In this document: positions 33,203-50,097 of the stretch, piece after piece
Layout of the letters: every line of letters starts with the position of its first letter
How positions within the stretch are numbered: the stretch's first letter is position 1
DNA from: Thermotoga maritima MSB8
GTDB taxonomy: Bacteria; Thermotogota; Thermotogae; Thermotogales; Thermotogaceae
Length of the DNA stretch: 64,000 nucleotides
Assembly (NCBI RefSeq): GCF_000008545.1
Contig: NC_000853.1
Span: 1,688,465-1,752,464, forward strand
Direction: 5' to 3'
Program-made: the position numbers and the translations under genes
The notes under the pieces: model-generated
What the model was told of the DNA's origin: nothing
The model's database searches: none
Seen by the model: the letters and a program-made list of their open reading frames with translations, nothing else

Positions 33203-33223
33203 CCCTCTTTCCCCACACCCCGG

Positions 33224-33251
33224 CGGGCCCGCAGTGGGCCCGTTTTTTTTT
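33224..33251 (+). terminator. Rho-independent terminator
   Basis: CGGGCCC / GGGCCCG stem with a 5-nt loop followed by nine T, 21 nt after the Spy-like gene. Strong intrinsic terminator at the left border of the AT-rich island. Confidence 0.93.
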
Positions 33252-33371
33252 CAAAGATTCATCTTCCACCACGCACTTAACCCTGTCGCTTCGAAATGAC
33301 AATAATTCAAAATAAATGGATATATCCCAAAATGATTTCTAATATTGCGGAATAATTACTCTTCACTTCGT

Positions 33372-33401
33372 TTGGAACTCAATATCACAGTCTGATAAAA
33401 T
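33372..33401 (+). promoter_or_regulatory. Promoter of the sugar ABC transporter operon
   Basis: TTGGAA (33372-33377) and TAAAAT (33396-33401) are spaced by 18 bp, about 70 bp upstream of the binding-protein ATG. The surrounding gene-free stretch 33252-33469 is very AT-rich and also holds the palindrome GGATATATCC at 33318-33327; no gene was found in it. Confidence 0.55.
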
Positions 33402-33430
33402 ATCCATAACATAATCTTTTTATTAGTAAG

Positions 33431-33445
33431 TGTTATTTATTAACA
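33431..33445 (+). promoter_or_regulatory. Palindrome, candidate operator of the transporter operon
   Basis: TGTTA-TTTAT-TAACA is a perfect 5-bp inverted repeat with a 5-bp spacer, 30 bp downstream of the predicted -10 and 25 bp before the start codon. Position fits a repressor site. No regulator gene is nearby. Confidence 0.4.
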
Positions 33446-33469
33446 TCCATTTAAAGGAGGGGATGTTGT

Positions 33470-35398
33470 ATGAGAAAGTTCGTTGTGGGGTTCCTGATGG
33501 TTTTAGTCGCTGCATTTTATTTTAGTGAAGTCGAGGTACAGCTTCCATGGTTTGGTGTAACAAACTTCGATCCCTACTACTGGCAAGCCCAGCATATTCT
33601 GGCTCAAGGAACCATTTTCGAAGGTTTGTTTGGTTATGTTCCAGATCCCAAATCGCTTGGCGGTGTAAAGGTTGTACCAGCTGTCTGTGAAAGTTATACA
33701 GTATCTGAAGATGGTTTAACCTATACCTTCTACTTGAGAAAAGATAAAAGATGGTCAAATGGTGATCCCGTTACTGCCTATGATTTCGAATTTGCTTGGA
33801 AAAGGGCTGCCAGTCCCGAAACACCAACTCTTCCACTCTGGGCTTCTCCTGTTCAGTACATAAAAAATGTCTACGATTGTAAATCCGGTGCCAAACCTCT
33901 TGATGAACTTGGAGTAAAAGCCCTGGATGACTACACACTTCAAGTTACTCTCTCAAGACCAATGCCATCTTTCATTAATATGCTTGTTCTCGGTGGAGCA
34001 ATGCCTCTGCATAGGAAAACTGTTCAGGAACACCCTGAAGACTGGTGGAAGCCCGAGTATTTTGTTGGAAATGGACCGTATGTTATTGAATCCTTTACAC
34101 CTAATTACGAGATAGTCCTGGTCAGAAATAAATACTATGTGGGAGATTTTCCTGGCAATGTTGATAGAATTGTGCTCAAAGCAGGCGGGCTTGGATTGCA
34201 GCAGTATTTAGCTGGAGAGATAGATGCTGTTTTTATCACCGCAGTTGGAGATTATGTGTTTGCATTGAAAAACAAACAACTTTCCAAGGAACTTCATGAA
34301 GAATCTGGTGTTCAATGGGTGGGATACGAAATCACAAGAAGCCTAAGTCCTGTTTTTGACGATATACGAATAAGAAAAGCACTTGCAATGGCTATTGACA
34401 AGAAAGTCTTAACTGACATTGTTCTTGGTGGTATGGCCATTCCAACACACGCATATTGTTCTCCTGATAGTGAAATAGCGGAAGCTGTGAAGGGAATACC
34501 CTATGATCCAGAACAGGCAAAGAAGTTACTAGCGGAAGCAGGTTATCCAAACGGAAAAGGTTTTCCAAAAGTGAAGTTCTACATAACAGGAGCGTCTGAT
34601 CCTGTAGCGGAAGCACTGGTTGACCAGTGGAAAAAAGTTCTTGGAATCACTTTTGAAATTGAAAATATAGAGTCCGGTCAATTTTCAACACTGCAATGGA
34701 GTGATTTTGTGCCTTGGGCAGAACCAGGTGTATGTACAATTGGTGGGCCCGTCAACTGGCAAGACAGTGGTTCTCTTATGCAAACTGCCGATCATACATT
34801 CTGGTTCTACGATTACCCCGCTGAGGTACGTCAAAAACTCTATGAATTAAGAGAGAAAAGAGAAAGTGTCCTCAGAGAAGAAGGTGGAAAAACAGAAGAA
34901 GAGTGGAAGGAGATACTAAACCGCGCCCAGGAACTCTGGGAGAAGTGGCAAGAAGTTGTTAACTCCGAACCAGATGAATTCTTGAAAAAATACTTCCTTC
35001 TTCCTGCCCCCGGAGAATTGACCTTCATAGAACAAATCAACAAGTTGTATGAAGAATGGAAAAAAGCCACAACCGACGAGCAAAAAATTCAGCTCTGGAG
35101 ATTGGCAATGAGAGCTATATACAATCAGGAATATTCTCTGGTTGAATACACCGGAATGAACCCAACTAATAGGGAAGCCAGAAGACTATGGGCAAGAATT
35201 CTCTATTCACCCTACGATAAAGCCGTCGAATATGCAAAGAAACTCCAGCAATTGTGTGTAGATCTTGCCTACGAAGTTCCTCTGTACGTTCAGAAAGTTG
35301 TGTATCTTGCCAAACCATACCTCAAGGGAATAGTTCCTTACAAATTCTCGTGGGGTCCCACTTTCTTCCTCTTCAAATACTTAACTGTTGAGAAGTGA
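33470..35398 (+). CDS. ABC transporter substrate-binding protein, family 5 (probable oligosaccharide binder)
   Basis: 642 aa, SBP_bac_5 fold. N-terminal signal segment (MRKFVVGFLMVLVAAFYF) without a lipobox cysteine, then SYTVSEDGLTYTFYLRKDKRWSNGDPVTAYDFEFAW and a C-terminal LAKPYLKGI. The family was named for oligopeptides, but in Thermotoga several members, including the close T. maritima homologue in the same context, bind beta-linked mannan or glucan oligosaccharides. The adjacent GH5 genes support a sugar ligand. AAGGAGGGG precedes the ATG. Codon use is AT-rich, unlike genes to the left. Confidence 0.88.
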   Translation: MRKFVVGFLMVLVAAFYFSEVEVQLPWFGVTNFDPYYWQAQHILAQGTIFEGLFGYVPDPKSLGGVKVVPAVCESYTVSEDGLTYTFYLRKDKRWSNGDPVTAYDFEFAWKRAASPETPTLPLWASPVQYIKNVYDCKSGAKPLDELGVKALDDYTLQVTLSRPMPSFINMLVLGGAMPLHRKTVQEHPEDWWKPEYFVGNGPYVIESFTPNYEIVLVRNKYYVGDFPGNVDRIVLKAGGLGLQQYLAGEIDAVFITAVGDYVFALKNKQLSKELHEESGVQWVGYEITRSLSPVFDDIRIRKALAMAIDKKVLTDIVLGGMAIPTHAYCSPDSEIAEAVKGIPYDPEQAKKLLAEAGYPNGKGFPKVKFYITGASDPVAEALVDQWKKVLGITFEIENIESGQFSTLQWSDFVPWAEPGVCTIGGPVNWQDSGSLMQTADHTFWFYDYPAEVRQKLYELREKRESVLREEGGKTEEEWKEILNRAQELWEKWQEVVNSEPDEFLKKYFLLPAPGELTFIEQINKLYEEWKKATTDEQKIQLWRLAMRAIYNQEYSLVEYTGMNPTNREARRLWARILYSPYDKAVEYAKKLQQLCVDLAYEVPLYVQKVVYLAKPYLKGIVPYKFSWGPTFFLFKYLTVEK

Positions 35399-35403
35399 AT
35401 TCT

Positions 35404-35427
35404 GAGCCCTGGGATTTCCCAGGGCTC
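35404..35427 (+). terminator. Intercistronic hairpin between binding protein and first permease
   Basis: GAGCCCTGGG-ATTT-CCCAGGGCTC gives a 10-bp perfect stem just after the stop codon. No T-run follows. Likely a partial terminator or 3' stabiliser that keeps binding-protein mRNA more abundant than permease mRNA. Confidence 0.75.
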
Positions 35428-35457
35428 CTGCTAAACATGTCGAATGGGGTGGTTGAT

Positions 35458-36420
35458 ATGAGATTTTTAAAATTTCTCTTAAAAAGACTTTTGACCATTG
35501 CTATTTCTATGGTAGTTGTTATTGTAATAACATATGTTCTAATGTGGCTTGCCCCTGGAAATTTCTTTGAACTTCAACGCGTACGAGATGCGATAGCGAG
35601 AGTCACAACACCCGACGATCCTGCTTATCAAGCTACCCTGAAAGGTTTTGAAGAGAGATATGGTTTGAATAATCCTCTGTGGAAACAGATCCTTATGTAT
35701 TTAAAAGGAGCTGTGGTTTTCAAATTCGGTCCTTCTTTTTCTGATCCTGCAAGAAACATAGAAGATTTGATAAAGGAGAAATTTCCTATTACTTTCACCC
35801 TTGCCCTTTCAAGCATCCTTTTCGCACTCGTGGTGGGAGTTCCTCTAGGAATCTTAGCAGCTCTCAAAAAAAACACATGGATTGACTATACTGCAATGAC
35901 CGTTTCTGTTATAGGAGTTGCCATCCCATCGTATGTAGTAGCAGTCTTTCTCATACTGATTTTTAGCATCTATTTGGGATGGCTTCCCACTTCCGGATGG
36001 GAAGGAATAAGAACTAAAATCCTTCCAACCATAGCTTTGGCACTCGGTCCACTCGCTTCTGTTGCCAGATTTACAAGAGTCAGTCTTCTAGACACATTGA
36101 ACCAAGACTTCATAAGAACCGCTTATGCAAAAGGTGGCGATGACAGAACGGTAATTATGAAACATGCTCTAAGGCCATCCATGATTCCTCTAGTAACGAT
36201 AGTAGGCCCTCAAATGGCTTATCTCATGGTTGGCACCGTTTGGGTCGAGAACATCTTCAGAATACCAGGTTTGGGACAACTCTTTGCTAATGCAGCAGTC
36301 ACTAGAGACTATCCACTTTTAGTAACTTCCACATTTATACTTGCCCTTACCGTTATGATCATGAACCTTATAGTTGATGTTCTTTATGCAATTCTCGATC
36401 CCAGAATAAAACTGGATTAA
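35458..36420 (+). CDS. ABC transporter permease (DppB/OppB family)
   Basis: 320 aa with six helices and the binding-protein-dependent permease signature (DFIRTAYAKGGDD, the EAA loop contacting the ATPases, about residue 220). First helix FLLKRLLTIAISMVVVIVIT. ATG 35458 with GGGGTGGT upstream is preferred to a longer reading that begins within the previous stop codon and passes through the hairpin. First of two permeases of the transporter. Confidence 0.92.
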   Translation: MRFLKFLLKRLLTIAISMVVVIVITYVLMWLAPGNFFELQRVRDAIARVTTPDDPAYQATLKGFEERYGLNNPLWKQILMYLKGAVVFKFGPSFSDPARNIEDLIKEKFPITFTLALSSILFALVVGVPLGILAALKKNTWIDYTAMTVSVIGVAIPSYVVAVFLILIFSIYLGWLPTSGWEGIRTKILPTIALALGPLASVARFTRVSLLDTLNQDFIRTAYAKGGDDRTVIMKHALRPSMIPLVTIVGPQMAYLMVGTVWVENIFRIPGLGQLFANAAVTRDYPLLVTSTFILALTVMIMNLIVDVLYAILDPRIKLD

Positions 36421-36437
36421 GGAGGTAATAAATCGGC

Positions 36438-37307
36438 ATGTTAAGAAAAAATAAAACGGAATCCATTGGTTACTGGAAAGCCTTCTGGTTAAGATTCAAA
36501 AAAAACAAAATGGCAGTAATAGGGGGAGTTTTTGTTTTAATCCTTATAGCACTTGCAATACTGGCTCCCTATATTGCTCCATATCCTTACGACGAGCCTC
36601 ACTATATCAGGGCTTTCGAGGGACCAAGCAAGGATTTCATATTCGGAACTGACGCATTGGGAAGAGATCTTTTCAGTAGAATTCTGTATAGTTTGAGAAA
36701 CGCATGTATTATAGGTTTCGGTTCTCAATTTGTTGTCCTGATCATAGGAGGCATTCTGGGTGCTGTCGCTGGTTTCAAGGGAGGCTGGATAGACAAATTT
36801 ATTATGAGTATTGTAGATATTATGTTTGCTTTTCCAACTTTTCTCTTCAACGTGATACTGGTTACAGCCTTAGGCAGGGGGCTTTTCACCATCTTCTTAG
36901 CTATAGGATTGACCGGATGGGCGGGAATGGCCCGACTTGTAAGAGGGCAAGTGTTGTATCTGAAGAATAGCGAATTTGTTGAAGCTGCAAAAGCCGCTGG
37001 TGCCAGCACCTTCTATATCATCAGAAAACATATTCTTCCCAATATGATAGGACCCATTCTTGTGAATCTTGCATTCGGAGTACCTGGAGCAATGATGACT
37101 GAAAGTGGTTTAGCAGTGATAGGAATGGGGGTAAGGCCTCCGATGCCGAGCTGGGGAAATCTTATAGGTGAAGGGATCGGGATGATGATGGCGTTCCCTC
37201 ATCTGCTAATATTTCCTGCTGTCACTTTTGCTTTTACCTTGATAAGTTTCACGTTTCTTGCAGATGGCTTAAGAGATGCCTTTAATCCAAGGAGTGAGAT
37301 ATCATGA
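36438..37307 (+). CDS. ABC transporter permease (DppC/OppC family)
   Basis: 289 aa, second transmembrane subunit. N-terminal WLRFKKNKMAVIGGVFVL and the DppC signature GTDALGRDLFSRILYSLRN (about residues 72-90), followed by five more helices and the EAA loop EFVEAAKAAGASTFYII. GGAGG lies 13 nt before the ATG, somewhat far. Overlaps the ATPase gene by 4 nt. Confidence 0.93.
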   Translation: MLRKNKTESIGYWKAFWLRFKKNKMAVIGGVFVLILIALAILAPYIAPYPYDEPHYIRAFEGPSKDFIFGTDALGRDLFSRILYSLRNACIIGFGSQFVVLIIGGILGAVAGFKGGWIDKFIMSIVDIMFAFPTFLFNVILVTALGRGLFTIFLAIGLTGWAGMARLVRGQVLYLKNSEFVEAAKAAGASTFYIIRKHILPNMIGPILVNLAFGVPGAMMTESGLAVIGMGVRPPMPSWGNLIGEGIGMMMAFPHLLIFPAVTFAFTLISFTFLADGLRDAFNPRSEIS

Positions 37308-38278
37308 TGGAACTGCTAAACGTGAATAATCTCAAGGTAGAGTTTCATAGAGTTGAAGGTATTGTCAAAGCAGTGGATGGAATCAGCTACAAATTGAACA
37401 AAGGCGAGAGTCTTGGAATAGTTGGTGAAAGTGGTTCTGGGAAGTCTGTATCAGTCCTTTCTCTTTTGAGATTGATAAATCGGAACGGGCGAATCGTTGA
37501 TGGTGAGGCTATATTCCTAGGAAAAGACCTTTTGAAATTGAATAAAGAAGAATTGAGAAACATAAGAGGGAAAGATATAAGCATCATTTTTCAAAATCCA
37601 ATGACCTCTCTTAATCCAATAATAAGAGTAGGAATTCAAGTAATGGAACCCATCATCTGGCATCGACTTATGAAGAATGAAGAAGCCAGAGAAAGAGCTA
37701 TAGAACTCCTGGAACGTGTTGGAATCCCTGAATCACCAAAAAGATTTCTGAACTATCCGTTCCAATTCTCTGGCGGAATGAGACAAAGAGTAATGATCGC
37801 AATGGCACTTGCATGCCATCCTAAACTCTTAATAGCTGATGAGCCAACAACTGCTTTAGATGTGACTATTCAGGCACAAATAATGGAACTACTTCAGGAA
37901 TTGAAAGAAGAATACGGTATGAGTGTTATATTCATAACACACGATCTTTCTGTGGCAACGAATTTTTGCGATCGAATAATTACAATGTATGCCGGAAAAA
38001 TTGTTGAAGAAGCACCAGTAGAAGAAATTTTAAAAACACCCCTACACCCTTATACCAAGGGTTTGTTGAACTCTACCCTTGAAATAGGCTCCCGCGGAAA
38101 AAAACTGGTACCAATACCGGGAAACCCACCAAACCCCACGAAACATCCTTCTGGTTGTAAATTTCACCCGAGATGTAGTTTTGCAATGGAAATTTGTCAA
38201 AGAGAAGAACCGCCCCTCGTAAATATTTCTGAAAATCATCGTGTTGCATGCCATTTGATCAAGGGGGAATCAAAATGA
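37304..38278 (+). CDS. ABC transporter ATP-binding protein (DppD/OppD type)
   Basis: 324 aa. Walker [10 protein letters not shown]-loop [12 protein letters not shown], signature [16 protein letters not shown], Walker [16 protein letters not shown]-loop ITHDLSV, and a C-terminal oligopeptide/dipeptide transporter domain with [14 protein letters not shown]. Partner of the next gene to form the ATPase heterodimer. Overlaps its neighbours by 4 nt on both sides. Confidence 0.95.
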
Positions 38279-39234
38279 AGCCTCTTTTACAAACCGTAGA
38301 TTTAAAAAAATATTTTCCTCAGGGGAAAAGAATACTTAAAGCAGTTGATGGAATATCAATAGAAATAAAAGAAGGAGAGACACTTGGGTTGGTCGGTGAA
38401 AGCGGCTGTGGAAAATCGACTCTGGGGAGAACGATTCTCAAACTCCTCAGACCTGATGGCGGTAAGATTTTCTTCGAAGGAAAAGATATAACAAACTTGA
38501 ATGACAAGGAGATGAAACCTTATAGGAAAAAGATGCAAATAATCTTCCAGGATCCTTTAGGATCTTTGAATCCACAGATGACTGTTGGAAGAATTATAGA
38601 AGATCCTCTCATAATTCACAAAATTGGAACGAAAAAAGAGAGGAGAAAACGAGTAGAAGAACTTTTAGATATGGTGGGAATAGGTAGAGAATTCATTAAC
38701 AGTTTTCCACACGAATTTTCCGGAGGGCAGCAGCAAAGAATAGGAATAGCTCGAGCTTTAGCTCTGAATCCGAAATTTATAGTCTGTGACGAGCCAGTAT
38801 CTGCTTTGGACGTTTCGATTCAGGCACAAATAATAGATCTTCTTGAAGAAATACAGCAGAAAATGGGTATCTCATACCTTTTCATTGCACACAATCTTGC
38901 AGTAGTCGAACATATAAGCCATAAAGTAGCTGTTATGTATCTCGGGAAAATTGTTGAGTATGGAGATGTAGATAAAATCTTCTTAAATCCAATTCATCCG
39001 TACACTCGAGCACTTTTGAAGAGCGTTCCTAAGATTCCATGGGACGGTCAAAAACAAAGATTTTATTCATTGAAAGGTGAACTTCCTTCTCCAATTGATC
39101 TTCCTAAAGGATGCAGATTCCAAACTAGATGTACAGAAAAAAAGGCAATCTGCTTTGAAAAAGAACCTGAACTCACAGAAGTGGAAAAAAATCATTTTGT
39201 GTCTTGTCATTTAGTCAGAAGCTATAGGGGGTGA
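38275..39234 (+). CDS. ABC transporter ATP-binding protein (DppF/OppF type)
   Basis: 319 aa. Walker A GESGCGKS, IIFQDPLGSLNP, FSGGQQQRIGIARALA, VCDEPVSALDVS, IAHNLAVVEH, and the C-terminal CRFQTRCTEKKAIC cysteine-rich tail. ATG 38275 with AGGGGGAATC upstream is chosen; it overlaps the previous stop as ATGA. Second ATPase of the transporter. Confidence 0.95.
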   Translation: MKPLLQTVDLKKYFPQGKRILKAVDGISIEIKEGETLGLVGESGCGKSTLGRTILKLLRPDGGKIFFEGKDITNLNDKEMKPYRKKMQIIFQDPLGSLNPQMTVGRIIEDPLIIHKIGTKKERRKRVEELLDMVGIGREFINSFPHEFSGGQQQRIGIARALALNPKFIVCDEPVSALDVSIQAQIIDLLEEIQQKMGISYLFIAHNLAVVEHISHKVAVMYLGKIVEYGDVDKIFLNPIHPYTRALLKSVPKIPWDGQKQRFYSLKGELPSPIDLPKGCRFQTRCTEKKAICFEKEPELTEVEKNHFVSCHLVRSYRG

Positions 39235-39239
39235 TTTTC

Positions 39240-40247
39240 TTGAAAAATTTTTTATTGTTTTTGCTTATGATCTTGATAATGGGAGGTATTGTTATGGGTG
39301 TTGATCCTTTTGAAAGGAACAAAATATTGGGAAGAGGCATTAATATAGGAAATGCGCTTGAAGCACCAAATGAGGGAGACTGGGGAGTGGTGATAAAAGA
39401 TGAGTTCTTCGACATTATAAAAGAAGCCGGTTTCTCTCATGTTCGAATTCCAATAAGATGGAGTACGCACGCTTACGCGTTTCCTCCTTATAAAATCATG
39501 GATCGCTTCTTCAAAAGAGTGGATGAAGTGATAAACGGAGCCCTGAAAAGAGGACTGGCTGTTGTTATAAATATTCATCACTACGAGGAGTTAATGAATG
39601 ATCCAGAAGAACACAAGGAAAGATTTCTTGCTCTTTGGAAACAAATTGCTGATCGTTATAAAGACTATCCCGAAACTCTATTTTTTGAAATTCTGAATGA
39701 ACCTCACGGAAATCTTACTCCGGAAAAATGGAATGAACTGCTTGAGGAAGCTCTAAAAGTTATAAGATCAATTGACAAAAAGCACACTATAATTATAGGC
39801 ACAGCTGAATGGGGGGGTATATCTGCCCTTGAAAAACTGTCTGTCCCAAAATGGGAAAAAAATTCTATAGTTACAATTCACTACTACAATCCTTTCGAAT
39901 TTACCCATCAAGGAGCTGAGTGGGTGGAAGGATCTGAGAAATGGTTGGGAAGAAAGTGGGGATCTCCAGATGATCAGAAACATTTGATAGAAGAATTCAA
40001 TTTTATAGAAGAATGGTCAAAAAAGAACAAAAGACCAATTTACATAGGTGAGTTTGGTGCCTACAGAAAAGCTGACCTTGAATCAAGAATAAAATGGACC
40101 TCCTTTGTCGTTCGCGAAATGGAGAAAAGGAGATGGAGCTGGGCATACTGGGAATTTTGTTCCGGTTTTGGTGTTTATGATACTCTGAGAAAAACCTGGA
40201 ATAAAGATCTTTTAGAAGCTTTAATAGGAGGAGATAGCATTGAATAA
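39240..40247 (+). CDS. cel5A: GH5 endo-beta-glucanase/mannanase, Cel5A type, with a possible alternative start
   Basis: GH5 barrel enzyme cleaving beta-1,4-glucans and mannans. Acid/base Glu in FEILNEPHG, nucleophile Glu in IGEFGAY, plus GRGINIGNALEAP and HVRIPIRWS. From TTG 39240 (GGGGGTGA about 6 nt upstream) the product is 335 aa with an N-terminal hydrophobic stretch MKNFLLFLLMILIMGGIV. A second in-frame start, ATG 39294, has its own GGGAGGT 7 nt upstream and yields the 317-aa form known for T. maritima Cel5A. Overlaps the next gene by 8 nt. AT-rich codon use. Confidence 0.93.
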   Translation: MKNFLLFLLMILIMGGIVMGVDPFERNKILGRGINIGNALEAPNEGDWGVVIKDEFFDIIKEAGFSHVRIPIRWSTHAYAFPPYKIMDRFFKRVDEVINGALKRGLAVVINIHHYEELMNDPEEHKERFLALWKQIADRYKDYPETLFFEILNEPHGNLTPEKWNELLEEALKVIRSIDKKHTIIIGTAEWGGISALEKLSVPKWEKNSIVTIHYYNPFEFTHQGAEWVEGSEKWLGRKWGSPDDQKHLIEEFNFIEEWSKKNKRPIYIGEFGAYRKADLESRIKWTSFVVREMEKRRWSWAYWEFCSGFGVYDTLRKTWNKDLLEALIGGDSIE

Positions 40248-41229
40248 CACCATTCCAAGATGGCGTGGTTTCAACCTTCTGGAGGCCTTTTCCATTAAAA
40301 GTACAGGAAATTTTAAAGAGGAAGATTTTTTGTGGATGGCTCAGTGGGACTTTAATTTTGTTAGAATCCCTATGTGTCATCTTCTCTGGTCAGACCGGGG
40401 CAACCCATTTATTATCAGAGAAGATTTTTTTGAGAAAATCGATCGTGTAATTTTCTGGGGAGAGAAATATGGAATACATATATGTATTTCTCTTCACAGG
40501 GCACCTGGCTATTCTGTTAACAAGGAAGTAGAAGAGAAAACCAATCTGTGGAAAGATGAAACAGCTCAAGAAGCGTTCATTCATCACTGGTCTTTTATCG
40601 CACGTCGTTACAAAGGAATTTCTTCCACACACCTGAGTTTTAACTTAATAAATGAGCCTCCATTTCCTGATCCACAAATCATGAGTGTTGAAGATCACAA
40701 CTCTCTTATCAAGAGAACTATTACAGAAATTCGAAAAATAGATCCCGAAAGATTAATTATAATAGATGGATTAGGCTATGGGAATATTCCAGTGGATGAT
40801 TTAACAATTGAGAATACAGTGCAATCATGCAGAGGGTACATTCCCTTCAGTGTTACTCATTACAAAGCGGAATGGGTGGATAGTAAGGACTTTCCTGTTC
40901 CTGAGTGGCCAAATGGATGGCATTTTGGGGAATACTGGAACAGAGAAAAGTTATTGGAACATTATTTAACGTGGATAAAACTCAGACAAAAAGGAATAGA
41001 AGTATTCTGTGGAGAAATGGGAGCTTACAACAAAACACCTCACGATGTGGTTTTAAAATGGCTTGAAGATCTTTTAGAAATTTTTAAAACTTTGAACATA
41101 GGGTTTGCCTTATGGAATTTTAGAGGTCCTTTTGGTATTTTAGATTCGGAAAGGAAAGACGTTGAATACGAAGAATGGTATGGACATAAACTGGATAGGA
41201 AAATGTTGGAACTATTGAGAAAATATTAG
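40240..41229 (+). CDS. cel5B: GH5 glycoside hydrolase, Cel5B type
   Basis: 329 aa, GH5 family, distantly related to the preceding Cel5A. N-terminal PRWRGFNLLEAF, acid/base Glu in NLINEPPFP, nucleophile Glu in FCGEMGAYN. No signal peptide, so presumably cytoplasmic and acting on imported oligosaccharides. TTG start with GGAGGAGAT 7 nt upstream. Last gene of the transporter operon; no terminator was found after it before the uvrB fragment. Confidence 0.9.
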   Translation: MNNTIPRWRGFNLLEAFSIKSTGNFKEEDFLWMAQWDFNFVRIPMCHLLWSDRGNPFIIREDFFEKIDRVIFWGEKYGIHICISLHRAPGYSVNKEVEEKTNLWKDETAQEAFIHHWSFIARRYKGISSTHLSFNLINEPPFPDPQIMSVEDHNSLIKRTITEIRKIDPERLIIIDGLGYGNIPVDDLTIENTVQSCRGYIPFSVTHYKAEWVDSKDFPVPEWPNGWHFGEYWNREKLLEHYLTWIKLRQKGIEVFCGEMGAYNKTPHDVVLKWLEDLLEIFKTLNIGFALWNFRGPFGILDSERKDVEYEEWYGHKLDRKMLELLRKY

Positions 41230-41273
41230 CAAGTTATGCCTTAAGACGAGGAAACGTAATCAAGCAATCTGAA

Positions 41274-41526
41274 GAGTGATACCGTGTTTTCTATTGTACT
41301 CGAGCTGAATTCTCCTTCTTCTGTTCGTTTCTTCGATGGCTCTCTTCATCGCGTTTGTTATCCTGTCGGCGTACATGATGACCTTCCCGTTGACGTTCCT
41401 TGCGGTTCTCCCTATAATCTGGATGAGCGTTGTTTCAGATCGCAGGAAGCCTTCCACGTCCGCGTCCATGATCGCCACCGGTGACACCTCGAGAAGATCG
41501 AGACCCTCCCTCAGAAGGTTCACACC
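41274..41526 (-). pseudogene. Duplicated internal fragment of uvrB
   Basis: 253 bp that match 48357-48609 inside uvrB with only three mismatches by eye, in the same orientation, 7083 bp apart. The piece covers UvrB residues 497-581 (helicase motifs [14 protein letters not shown]). Two of the three differences change amino acids (Pro to Leu, Leu to Pro), as expected without selection. An open frame of 99 codons remains (41260-41559) but lacks a good ribosome-binding site. It has no ends of the gene and no partner domains. Confidence 0.93.
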
Positions 41527-41560
41527 CCTGTAATTAACCTGCTTTTCTTCTTCTCTCAAA

Positions 41561-41648
41561 ATGTTGACAAATTTTGATCTTGATGTTTCTGTATGGTAAT
41601 ATTCTTATGGAACATTACATAAAACTTTGTGTAATCTTTTGTCAACAT
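41561..41648. promoter_or_regulatory. Inverted repeat flanking the buk promoter
   Basis: ATGTTGACAAA at 41561-41571 and its perfect reverse complement TTTGTCAACAT at 41638-41648 enclose 66 bp. A promoter lies between: TTGATC at 41574-41579, 17-bp spacer, extended -10 TGGTAATAT ending at 41602. A smaller nested repeat, ATTACA-N10-TGTAAT, is at 41614-41635 in the leader. The arrangement suggests paired operator sites for one regulator. Confidence 0.55.
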
Positions 41649-41661
41649 AAGAGGTGATCGG

Positions 41662-48124: not shown

Positions 48125-50097
48125 ATCTCTTCCCTGATTCTGAACAGCTCATCCCTCAAGGCCGCTGCATCTTCGTACCTGAGCTCACTTGCAGCCCGAT
48201 ACATTTCCTCTTCGAGAACGGCCATGTACTCCTCTGGGGAGAGCGTTTTCTTCATCTCAAAGATGTTTTTCACAGTGTCTCCGTACCTCTCAGGCTCTTC
48301 TTTCACCATGAACTGTTCGAATACTTCTATCTCCAGAGGCTTTATCACGGAACGTGGAGTGATACCGTGTTTTCTATTGTACTCGAGCTGAATTCTCCTT
48401 CTTCTGTTCGTTTCTTCGATGGCTCTCTTCATCGCGTTTGTTATCCTGTCGGCGTACATGATGACCTTCCCGTTGACGTTCCTTGCGGTTCTCCCTATAA
48501 TCTGGATGAGCGTTGTTTCAGATCGCAGGAAGCCTTCCACGTCCGCGTCCATGATCGCTACCAGTGACACCTCGGGAAGATCGAGACCCTCCCTCAGAAG
48601 GTTCACACCAACGACCACGTCTACGTCTCCTCGCCTCAGTTTCTTCAGGACCTCAACCCTTTCTATGGCGTCCAGTTCGGAGTGAAGATAGAGCGATCTT
48701 ATTCCAAGTTCCGTCAGATGTTCACTCAAAAGCTCTGCCGTTTTTTTGGTGAGCACCGTAACGAGGGCCCTCTCCCCTCTTTCTTTCACTTTCACGATCT
48801 CGTTCACAAGATCATCCACTTGCCCCGCGGTGGGACGTACCTCCACCTCTGGATCCACGAGTCCTGTGGGTCTAATGATCTGCTCGACGACCTGTTCAGA
48901 GATCGAGAGTTCGAAGTCTCCCGGCGTAGCGGAAACGAAGATGATCTGGCCTGTTTTTTTCAAAAATTCTTCGAAAGTCAGCGGTCTGTTGTCGTAAGCG
49001 GAAGGCAGACGAAAACCGTATTCGACCAGATTTTTCTTTCTGGATCTGTCTCCGTTGTACATGGCCCTGAGTTGAGGAACCGTGATGTGTGACTCGTCTA
49101 TGAAAACGATGAAATCTTTATCGAAATAATCGAGAAGAGTGTACGGAGGCTCTCCCGGCTTTCTTCCATCGAAGTGCCTGGAGTAGTTCTCTATTCCAGG
49201 ACAGTATCCCATGGTCTCCAGCAGCTCTATGTCGTTCAGAGTTCTCTGCTTCAAGCGTTCGTACTCGAGGATCTTTCCCTGTTTTTTGAGCTCTGAGAGT
49301 CTTTCGTTAAGCTCCTCCCTTATTGATTCGACGGCTCTTTTGAGTTTCTCCTCCGTTGTGATAAATTCAACGGCGGGATAGATGATGATCTTGTCAAGGT
49401 GCTCCAGTGTGGTGCGATTGAATCTGTCTATCAACGTTATCGAGTCCACTTCGTCTCCGAAGAATTCGATCCTGATCCCTTCATCCTGATACGTCGGGTA
49501 GATCTCCACCGTGTCTCCCTTCAGCCTGAAACATCCAGAAAGAGACACATCCTCCGTTCTCTGATAGCCTATCCTTGCCAGTCTTTCCGCGAGTTCCAGA
49601 ACGTCTATTCTATCTCCAACAGCGAGATTTATGTTCATCCTATCGAAATCGTTCGGGTCTCCCGTGGCGTAAATACACGAAACACTCGCAACTACCACCA
49701 CATCGCGACGAGTTCTCACAGATTTCAACGTGGACATTCTCATTCGCACGATCACATCGTTGATGTCAGCGTTCTTCTCTATGTAAAGATCCTTCGTTGG
49801 AATATAGGCCTCCGGTTGATAGTAATCGTAGTAACTTATGAAGAACTCCACTCGATTTTCCGGGAAGAACGTTTTGAACTCCTGATAAAGCTGGGCGGCA
49901 AGCGTCTTGTTCGGTGAGATCACAAGGGCGGGTCTGTTCACACGCGCTATCACGTTGGCCATGGTGAAAGTCTTTCCGCTCCCCGTAACACCGAGGAGCG
50001 TTTGAAATCTCATTCCCCTGTTCAAACCTTCTACAAGTTTTTCTATGGCCTGTGGCTGGTCACCCGTTGGCTCAAATTCACTCACCAGCTTGAACAC
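48103..50097 (-). CDS. uvrB: Excinuclease ABC subunit B
   Basis: 664 aa, damage-verification helicase of nucleotide excision repair. Walker [10 protein letters not shown], the beta-hairpin region [24 protein letters not shown], motif [13 protein letters not shown], and a C-terminal UVR domain ([18 protein letters not shown]) that contacts UvrC. GTG 50097 has AGGAGG about 9 nt upstream. Residues 497-581 are duplicated at 41274-41526. Confidence 0.96.

Follow-up and report, generated by a model that had tools for sequence, protein, structure and literature searches.

The cel5A gene (TM1751) of Thermotoga maritima MSB8 contains two in-frame start codons, TTG 39240 and ATG 39294, each with a Shine-Dalgarno (SD) site of functional strength, and the 18 codons between them are predicted to encode most of a signal peptide (Table 1; all positions are those of the window, i.e., the entire 64,000-nt stretch of DNA that was analyzed). 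Judged from sequence, the 335-aa precursor and its exported form are more likely the main product of the gene. We propose that, in addition to this main exported product from TTG 39240, cel5A gives rise to a smaller leaderless cytoplasmic product from ATG 39294, and we place the rough probability of this dual-product reading at slightly under one half. Cel5A is a standard thermostable cellulase that has been studied as a leaderless 317-aa protein. The restored leader would move the enzyme from the cytoplasm to the outside of the inner membrane, ahead of the adjoining oligosaccharide importer, and, if the internal start is used, one gene would serve both compartments.

Table 1. Features of the cel5A region of T. 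maritima (positions in the window) and SD-led second starts in the leaders of Thermotogales orthologues (positions in codons).
Feature	Position	Strand	Remarks
Oligosaccharide/oligopeptide-type ABC transporter genes	33470..39234	+	Directly upstream of cel5A, same direction
Upstream SD GGGGGTGAT	39227..39235	+	Serves TTG 39240; duplex energy -15.6 kcal/mol
cel5A, 335-aa precursor from TTG 39240	39240..40247	+	GH5 endoglucanase/mannanase, Pfam Cellulase PF00150
Predicted signal peptide MKNFLLFLLMILIMGGIVMG	39240..39299	+	Rule-based prediction, shuffle test, export signals in relatives
Second SD GGGAGGT	39281..39287	+	Within signal-peptide codons Met-Gly-Gly; -11.6 kcal/mol
317-aa reading from ATG 39294	39294..40247	+	Codon 19 of the long form; crystal-structure form; leaderless, would be cytoplasmic
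cel5B, GH5	40240..41229	+	TTG start, SD AGGAGG; 8-nt overlap with the end of cel5A
Second start, orthologue L085	GTG, codon 21		SD -11.7
Second start, orthologue L086	ATG, codon 38		SD -9.7
Second start, orthologue L087	GTG, codon 43		SD -10.3
Second start, orthologue L088 and near-twin L091	ATG, codon 38		SD -10.9
Second start, orthologue L090	GTG 17/ATG 18		SD -11.2

Two Start Codons and Their SD Sites

The sequence-only reading had described two in-frame starts of cel5A, each with a well-placed ribosome-binding site, and the positions, the frame and both SD sites were confirmed in this study. The two codons are separated by 54 nt, or 18 codons, and ATG 39294 lies 7 nt from the GGAGG core of GGGAGGT. 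The strength of an SD site was calculated as the energy of its duplex with the 3' end of T. maritima's own 16S rRNA (...GGATCACCTCCTTTC), and the background rates were obtained from sampled stretches of 464 kb, about a quarter of the genome, with 380 genes. With -15.6 kcal/mol, the site in front of TTG 39240 belonged to the best ~10% of the gene starts in the 380 sampled genes, and the site in front of ATG 39294, with -11.6 kcal/mol, was at the median for real gene starts, about half of which reach this value. Among in-frame ATG codons deep inside genes of the same 464-kb sample (n = 2192), only ~0.3% had an SD site as strong as that of ATG 39294; the sites reached -11 or lower in 0.41% of these codons and -12 or lower in 0.18%.

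Three further codons were considered as starts. GTG 39231, which would overlap the upstream stop codon by 4 nt, as well as ATG 39267 and ATG 39279, lacked an SD site (-1.1, +1.0 and -1.2 kcal/mol, respectively), and no other in-frame candidate rivals TTG 39240 and ATG 39294 in SD strength. RNA folding prediction at 80°C left neither start site sequestered in structure. The ABC-transporter ATPase gene in front of cel5A ends with TGA at 39232-39234, a stop codon that the upstream SD GGGGGTGAT overlaps, and the two genes are therefore probably translated in a coupled manner.

Predicted Signal Peptide and Export Signals in GH5_25 Relatives

The identity of the enzyme is well supported. Cel5A matched the Pfam family Cellulase (PF00150) with an E-value of 7.5e-56, and its catalytic part is identical to PDB entries 3amc and 3mmu, among other entries. 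TmCel5A has been classed in subfamily 25 of GH5 (GH5_25; PMC3526467), in which TmCel5A, FnCel5A and Cel5E of Clostridium thermocellum share the catalytic domain of T. maritima Cel5A. The TmCel5A protein of the GH5_25 literature is described without the 18-residue leader seen here, and no statement on the N-terminus of Cel5A was found in the part of the literature naming TM1751 that was consulted.

The leader has the sequence features of a substrate of Sec and signal peptidase I: a positive n-region (K2, net charge of +1), a hydrophobic core of 11 residues with a mean Kyte-Doolittle value of 3.4 and small residues (V18 and G20) at positions -3 and -1. The signal peptidase I site is predicted to follow G20 (V18-M19-G20/V21-D22-P23), and cleavage there would leave a mature enzyme of 315 aa that begins with VDPFER and lacks two residues of the 317-aa protein. 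It should be noted that the signal peptides were called with a rule of our own rather than with SignalP. When the 54 nt were shuffled with dinucleotide composition preserved, 0.3% of the shuffles stayed open and equally signal-like. The same rule found an export signal, either a signal peptide or a lipobox, in 72 of the 82 GH5_25 relatives from many phyla that had a readable N-terminus, a tally that leaves out some minus-strand loci, those of the Thermotogae having been read separately. Most of the remaining 10 relatives had a lipobox visible by eye or were cut by the end of a contig. Export thus appears to be the common condition of the GH5_25 family. The leader of T. maritima Cel5A is short and has no linker before the catalytic domain.

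These results bear out the earlier view that the 18 upstream residues resemble a signal peptide, given that the leader passed the rule, that few shuffles did as well and that export signals occur across the family. A lack of conservation of these codons in relatives had been named as a finding that would speak against a secreted form; the residues do differ among relatives, but an export signal is present in almost every one of them. Likewise, the 317-aa protein is the form usually described, being the one in the crystal structures, but the 335-aa precursor is more likely the main product. Given the export signals throughout the family and the leader upstream of ATG 39294, the 317-aa annotation seems to miss the leader, and the annotated protein would be the enzyme without it.

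That the 317-aa cytoplasmic protein is instead the sole product, with TTG 39240 unused, would agree with the median-strength SD site of ATG 39294 and with the fact that this is the form that has been studied and crystallized. We regard this as very improbable, because the 18 upstream codons are open and signal-like to a degree that shuffling rarely reproduced, because TTG 39240 stands behind one of the strongest SD sites sampled, and because the leader matches the position of the export signals in the family.

The Internal Start in the T. maritima Genome

The comparisons within the genome were less favorable to a role of ATG 39294. Two of the 380 sampled genes had two starts with SD sites of -11 or lower that were 10-40 codons apart, versus ~4 expected from the rates deep inside coding regions, and no excess of double starts was therefore found in the 464-kb sample of the T. 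maritima genome. The strength of the internal SD is also partly forced by the protein sequence, because Gly-Gly located two residues before Met encodes GGNGG; synonymous recoding kept a strong site in 45% of the trials. From the sequence statistics of T. maritima alone, the internal start looks incidental and its use is not required. The cel5A gene was absent from the six other Thermotoga species examined, which makes a codon-level comparison among close relatives impossible.

Consistent with these statistics is the possibility that the exported form alone matters, that ATG 39294 is silent or used only in traces and that the start codon of the 317-aa annotation is wrong, ATG having been preferred over TTG. 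The SD site is stronger at TTG 39240, signal peptides occur throughout the family, the internal SD is in part a by-product of the Gly-Gly-x-x-Met codons and double starts are not in excess in the genome sample. Start-codon misannotation is, moreover, frequent in T. maritima: in a re-annotation, 370 genes differed in length from their earlier versions, the start codon being the usual site of the change, and for 118 of them the difference was at least 10 aa (PMC3636130). We consider export with a silent internal ATG nearly as likely as the dual product. Silent accidents would not, however, be expected to produce the excess of SD-led second starts that was found in the leaders of the orthologues.

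Second Starts in Thermotogales Orthologues

For this comparison, the leader of an orthologue was defined as the region from codon 9 to the catalytic domain, a second start as an in-frame start codon with an SD site of -9.5 or lower, and T. maritima was excluded. A second SD-led in-frame start between the signal and the catalytic domain was found in five of the 10 distinct Thermotogales orthologues (Table 1), a small set of related species, and the cut-off of -9.5 was set after the first orthologues had been seen; at -10.5, the count was 3/10 plus T. maritima. No strong second start was present in the leaders of L082, L083, L089, and L097, and L084 had only a weaker one near its n-region. Each leader with a match contained a single SD-like element, with an in-frame ATG or GTG at initiation distance.

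The frequency of these second starts exceeded that in all controls. There were 22 per 1000 leader codons in the orthologues, versus 0.35-1.1 in the leaders of other exported proteins and 0.6-1.5 deep inside genes of the same organisms, and the rate was zero over the initial 80 codons of the catalytic domain. The five of 10 orthologues compared with 4/291 control leaders (Fisher's exact test without T. maritima, p = 1.5e-6), and with L086 and L088 merged the count was 4/9 (p = 2.5e-5). The four control matches comprised one genuine case among 113 leaders of four other exported families and three among 178 sampled exported genes; the four families, from the same order and genomes, had initially given 4/113 matches, three of which were misread first starts. 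Shuffles of the orthologue leaders that preserved dinucleotides (P = 1.4e-5) or changed only the order of the codons (P = 9e-5), and synonymous recoding (P = 7e-4), failed to reproduce the excess, which argues against AG-rich linkers as its source. Exported-protein leaders in general were rejected as the source as well, since second starts are not enriched in them. Given that second starts were above every control in the orthologues, the dual-product idea is raised well above a guess.

The SD-like element could have another role, namely to slow the ribosome as the signal peptide emerges and so to aid targeting, without any part in initiation. For other bacteria, SD-induced pausing has been suggested to play a part in protein targeting. 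The enrichment of SD-like elements in the orthologue leaders, at 6.7% of the positions versus a background of 1.4-3.2%, would fit such pausing. All six elements, including that of T. maritima, were however spaced for initiation at an in-frame start codon, versus the 11-13% expected from elements deep inside coding regions, and such elements were not seen in other exported proteins of the same genomes. We therefore view pausing as an improbable explanation.

The positions of the second starts are mostly non-homologous among the orthologues, and the pattern would be one of recurrence rather than conservation of a single site. Dual starts thus look recurrent in the Cel5A-type enzyme among Thermotogales. 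A broader proposal, which we put forward as speculative and rather doubtful, is that Thermotogales repeatedly evolved an SD-led internal start in this glucanase, so that a single gene, rather than the usual pair, would provide an enzyme for the cytoplasm as well as an exported one, often a lipoprotein. If the internal start is used, the recurrence in related species would allow selection for alternative initiation in bacteria to be tested by comparing species.

Outside Thermotogae, second starts are rare, and many of the organisms concerned rely little on SD sites. Two archaeal-binned GH5_25 relatives (L030 and L009) have a GTG with an SD of -10.7 directly before the catalytic domain, which is a possible second start. 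A separate observation concerns an exported protein (L147, MMKGILATILLLVALVSFGFDFGGGGPM...) of an orthologue-bearing genome (G019), in which an in-frame ATG at codon 28 lies past the signal peptide with an SD of -11.1.

Possible Roles of the Two Products

In the dual-product reading, the strong SD and the coupling to the preceding stop codon would load ribosomes at TTG 39240, the signal peptide would route the 335-aa chain through Sec and signal peptidase would cut after G20. ATG 39294 would also capture ribosomes and yield the leaderless 317-aa enzyme in smaller quantity, which would stay in the cytoplasm and cut oligosaccharides imported by the neighboring ABC transporter. We infer the use of the internal start, the export and cleavage through Sec, and the benefit of the cytoplasmic copy. 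The 317-aa protein is known to fold and to crystallize, so an enzyme made without the leader should be functional.

The arrangement of the genes is in keeping with a use for each form. Upstream, the transporter genes encode two permeases, two ATPases and a solute-binding protein of family 5 that carries a signal peptide, and downstream is cel5B, whose product was said to have no signal peptide; the signal-peptide rule, applied from TTG 40240, agreed. Cel5B would be the resident cytoplasmic GH5 partner. At the same time, Cel5B already provides T. maritima with a GH5 enzyme that lacks a leader, which speaks against a cytoplasmic copy of Cel5A. The proposed division between outside and inside resembles that between Cel12B, with a signal peptide, and Cel12A, with none, of T. 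maritima, but the latter uses two genes and the proposal for Cel5A uses two starts in one gene (PMC4517919).

Bacterial genes for N-terminal proteoforms, such as infB of E. coli, also have two in-frame starts and a shorter form that is a complete enzyme, as proposed for cel5A. In E. coli, N-terminomics identified two or three in-frame starts in each of 68 genes, and alternative starts are common (PMC13245402). In contrast to these proteoforms, the starts of cel5A, predicted from sequence, flank an export signal, so that the two forms would differ in location. Signal peptidase should leave the N-terminus VDPFER and the internal start, after removal of Met, GVDPFER, one residue apart. The calculated [M+H]+ masses are 762.378 for VDPFER, 819.400 for GVDPFER and 950.440 for MGVDPFER, in which Met is retained. 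The omics study of T. maritima that corrected many start codons also provides peptide lists that were made without protease restriction by matching to a six-frame translation (Table S8; PMC3636130), and these existing data can answer which starts of Cel5A are used, although the enzyme may be expressed only in cells that grow on beta-glucan or glucomannan.

The AT-Rich Island Carrying cel5A

The ABC transporter genes, cel5A and cel5B are located in an AT-rich island of ~8.3 kb (33203-41661). From the gene for the solute-binding protein to cel5B, the GC content is 37-42% and the GC3 content is 30-39%, versus 48-51% on either side. In four relatives (G001-G004), the two flanking genes were found without the island between them; in one relative, the 97%-identical G002, these genes are 866 nt apart, versus 9.2 kb in T. 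maritima. The island was probably gained by horizontal transfer. At its right edge is a uvrB fragment of 253 nt (41274-41526) that is 98.8% identical to the copy at 48.4 kb (48357-48609) and may mark how the island was inserted. In the Thermotoga species represented by G004, a gene for a BtuF-like binding protein was found in pieces, with a stop codon (G004:C1:255393-256446).
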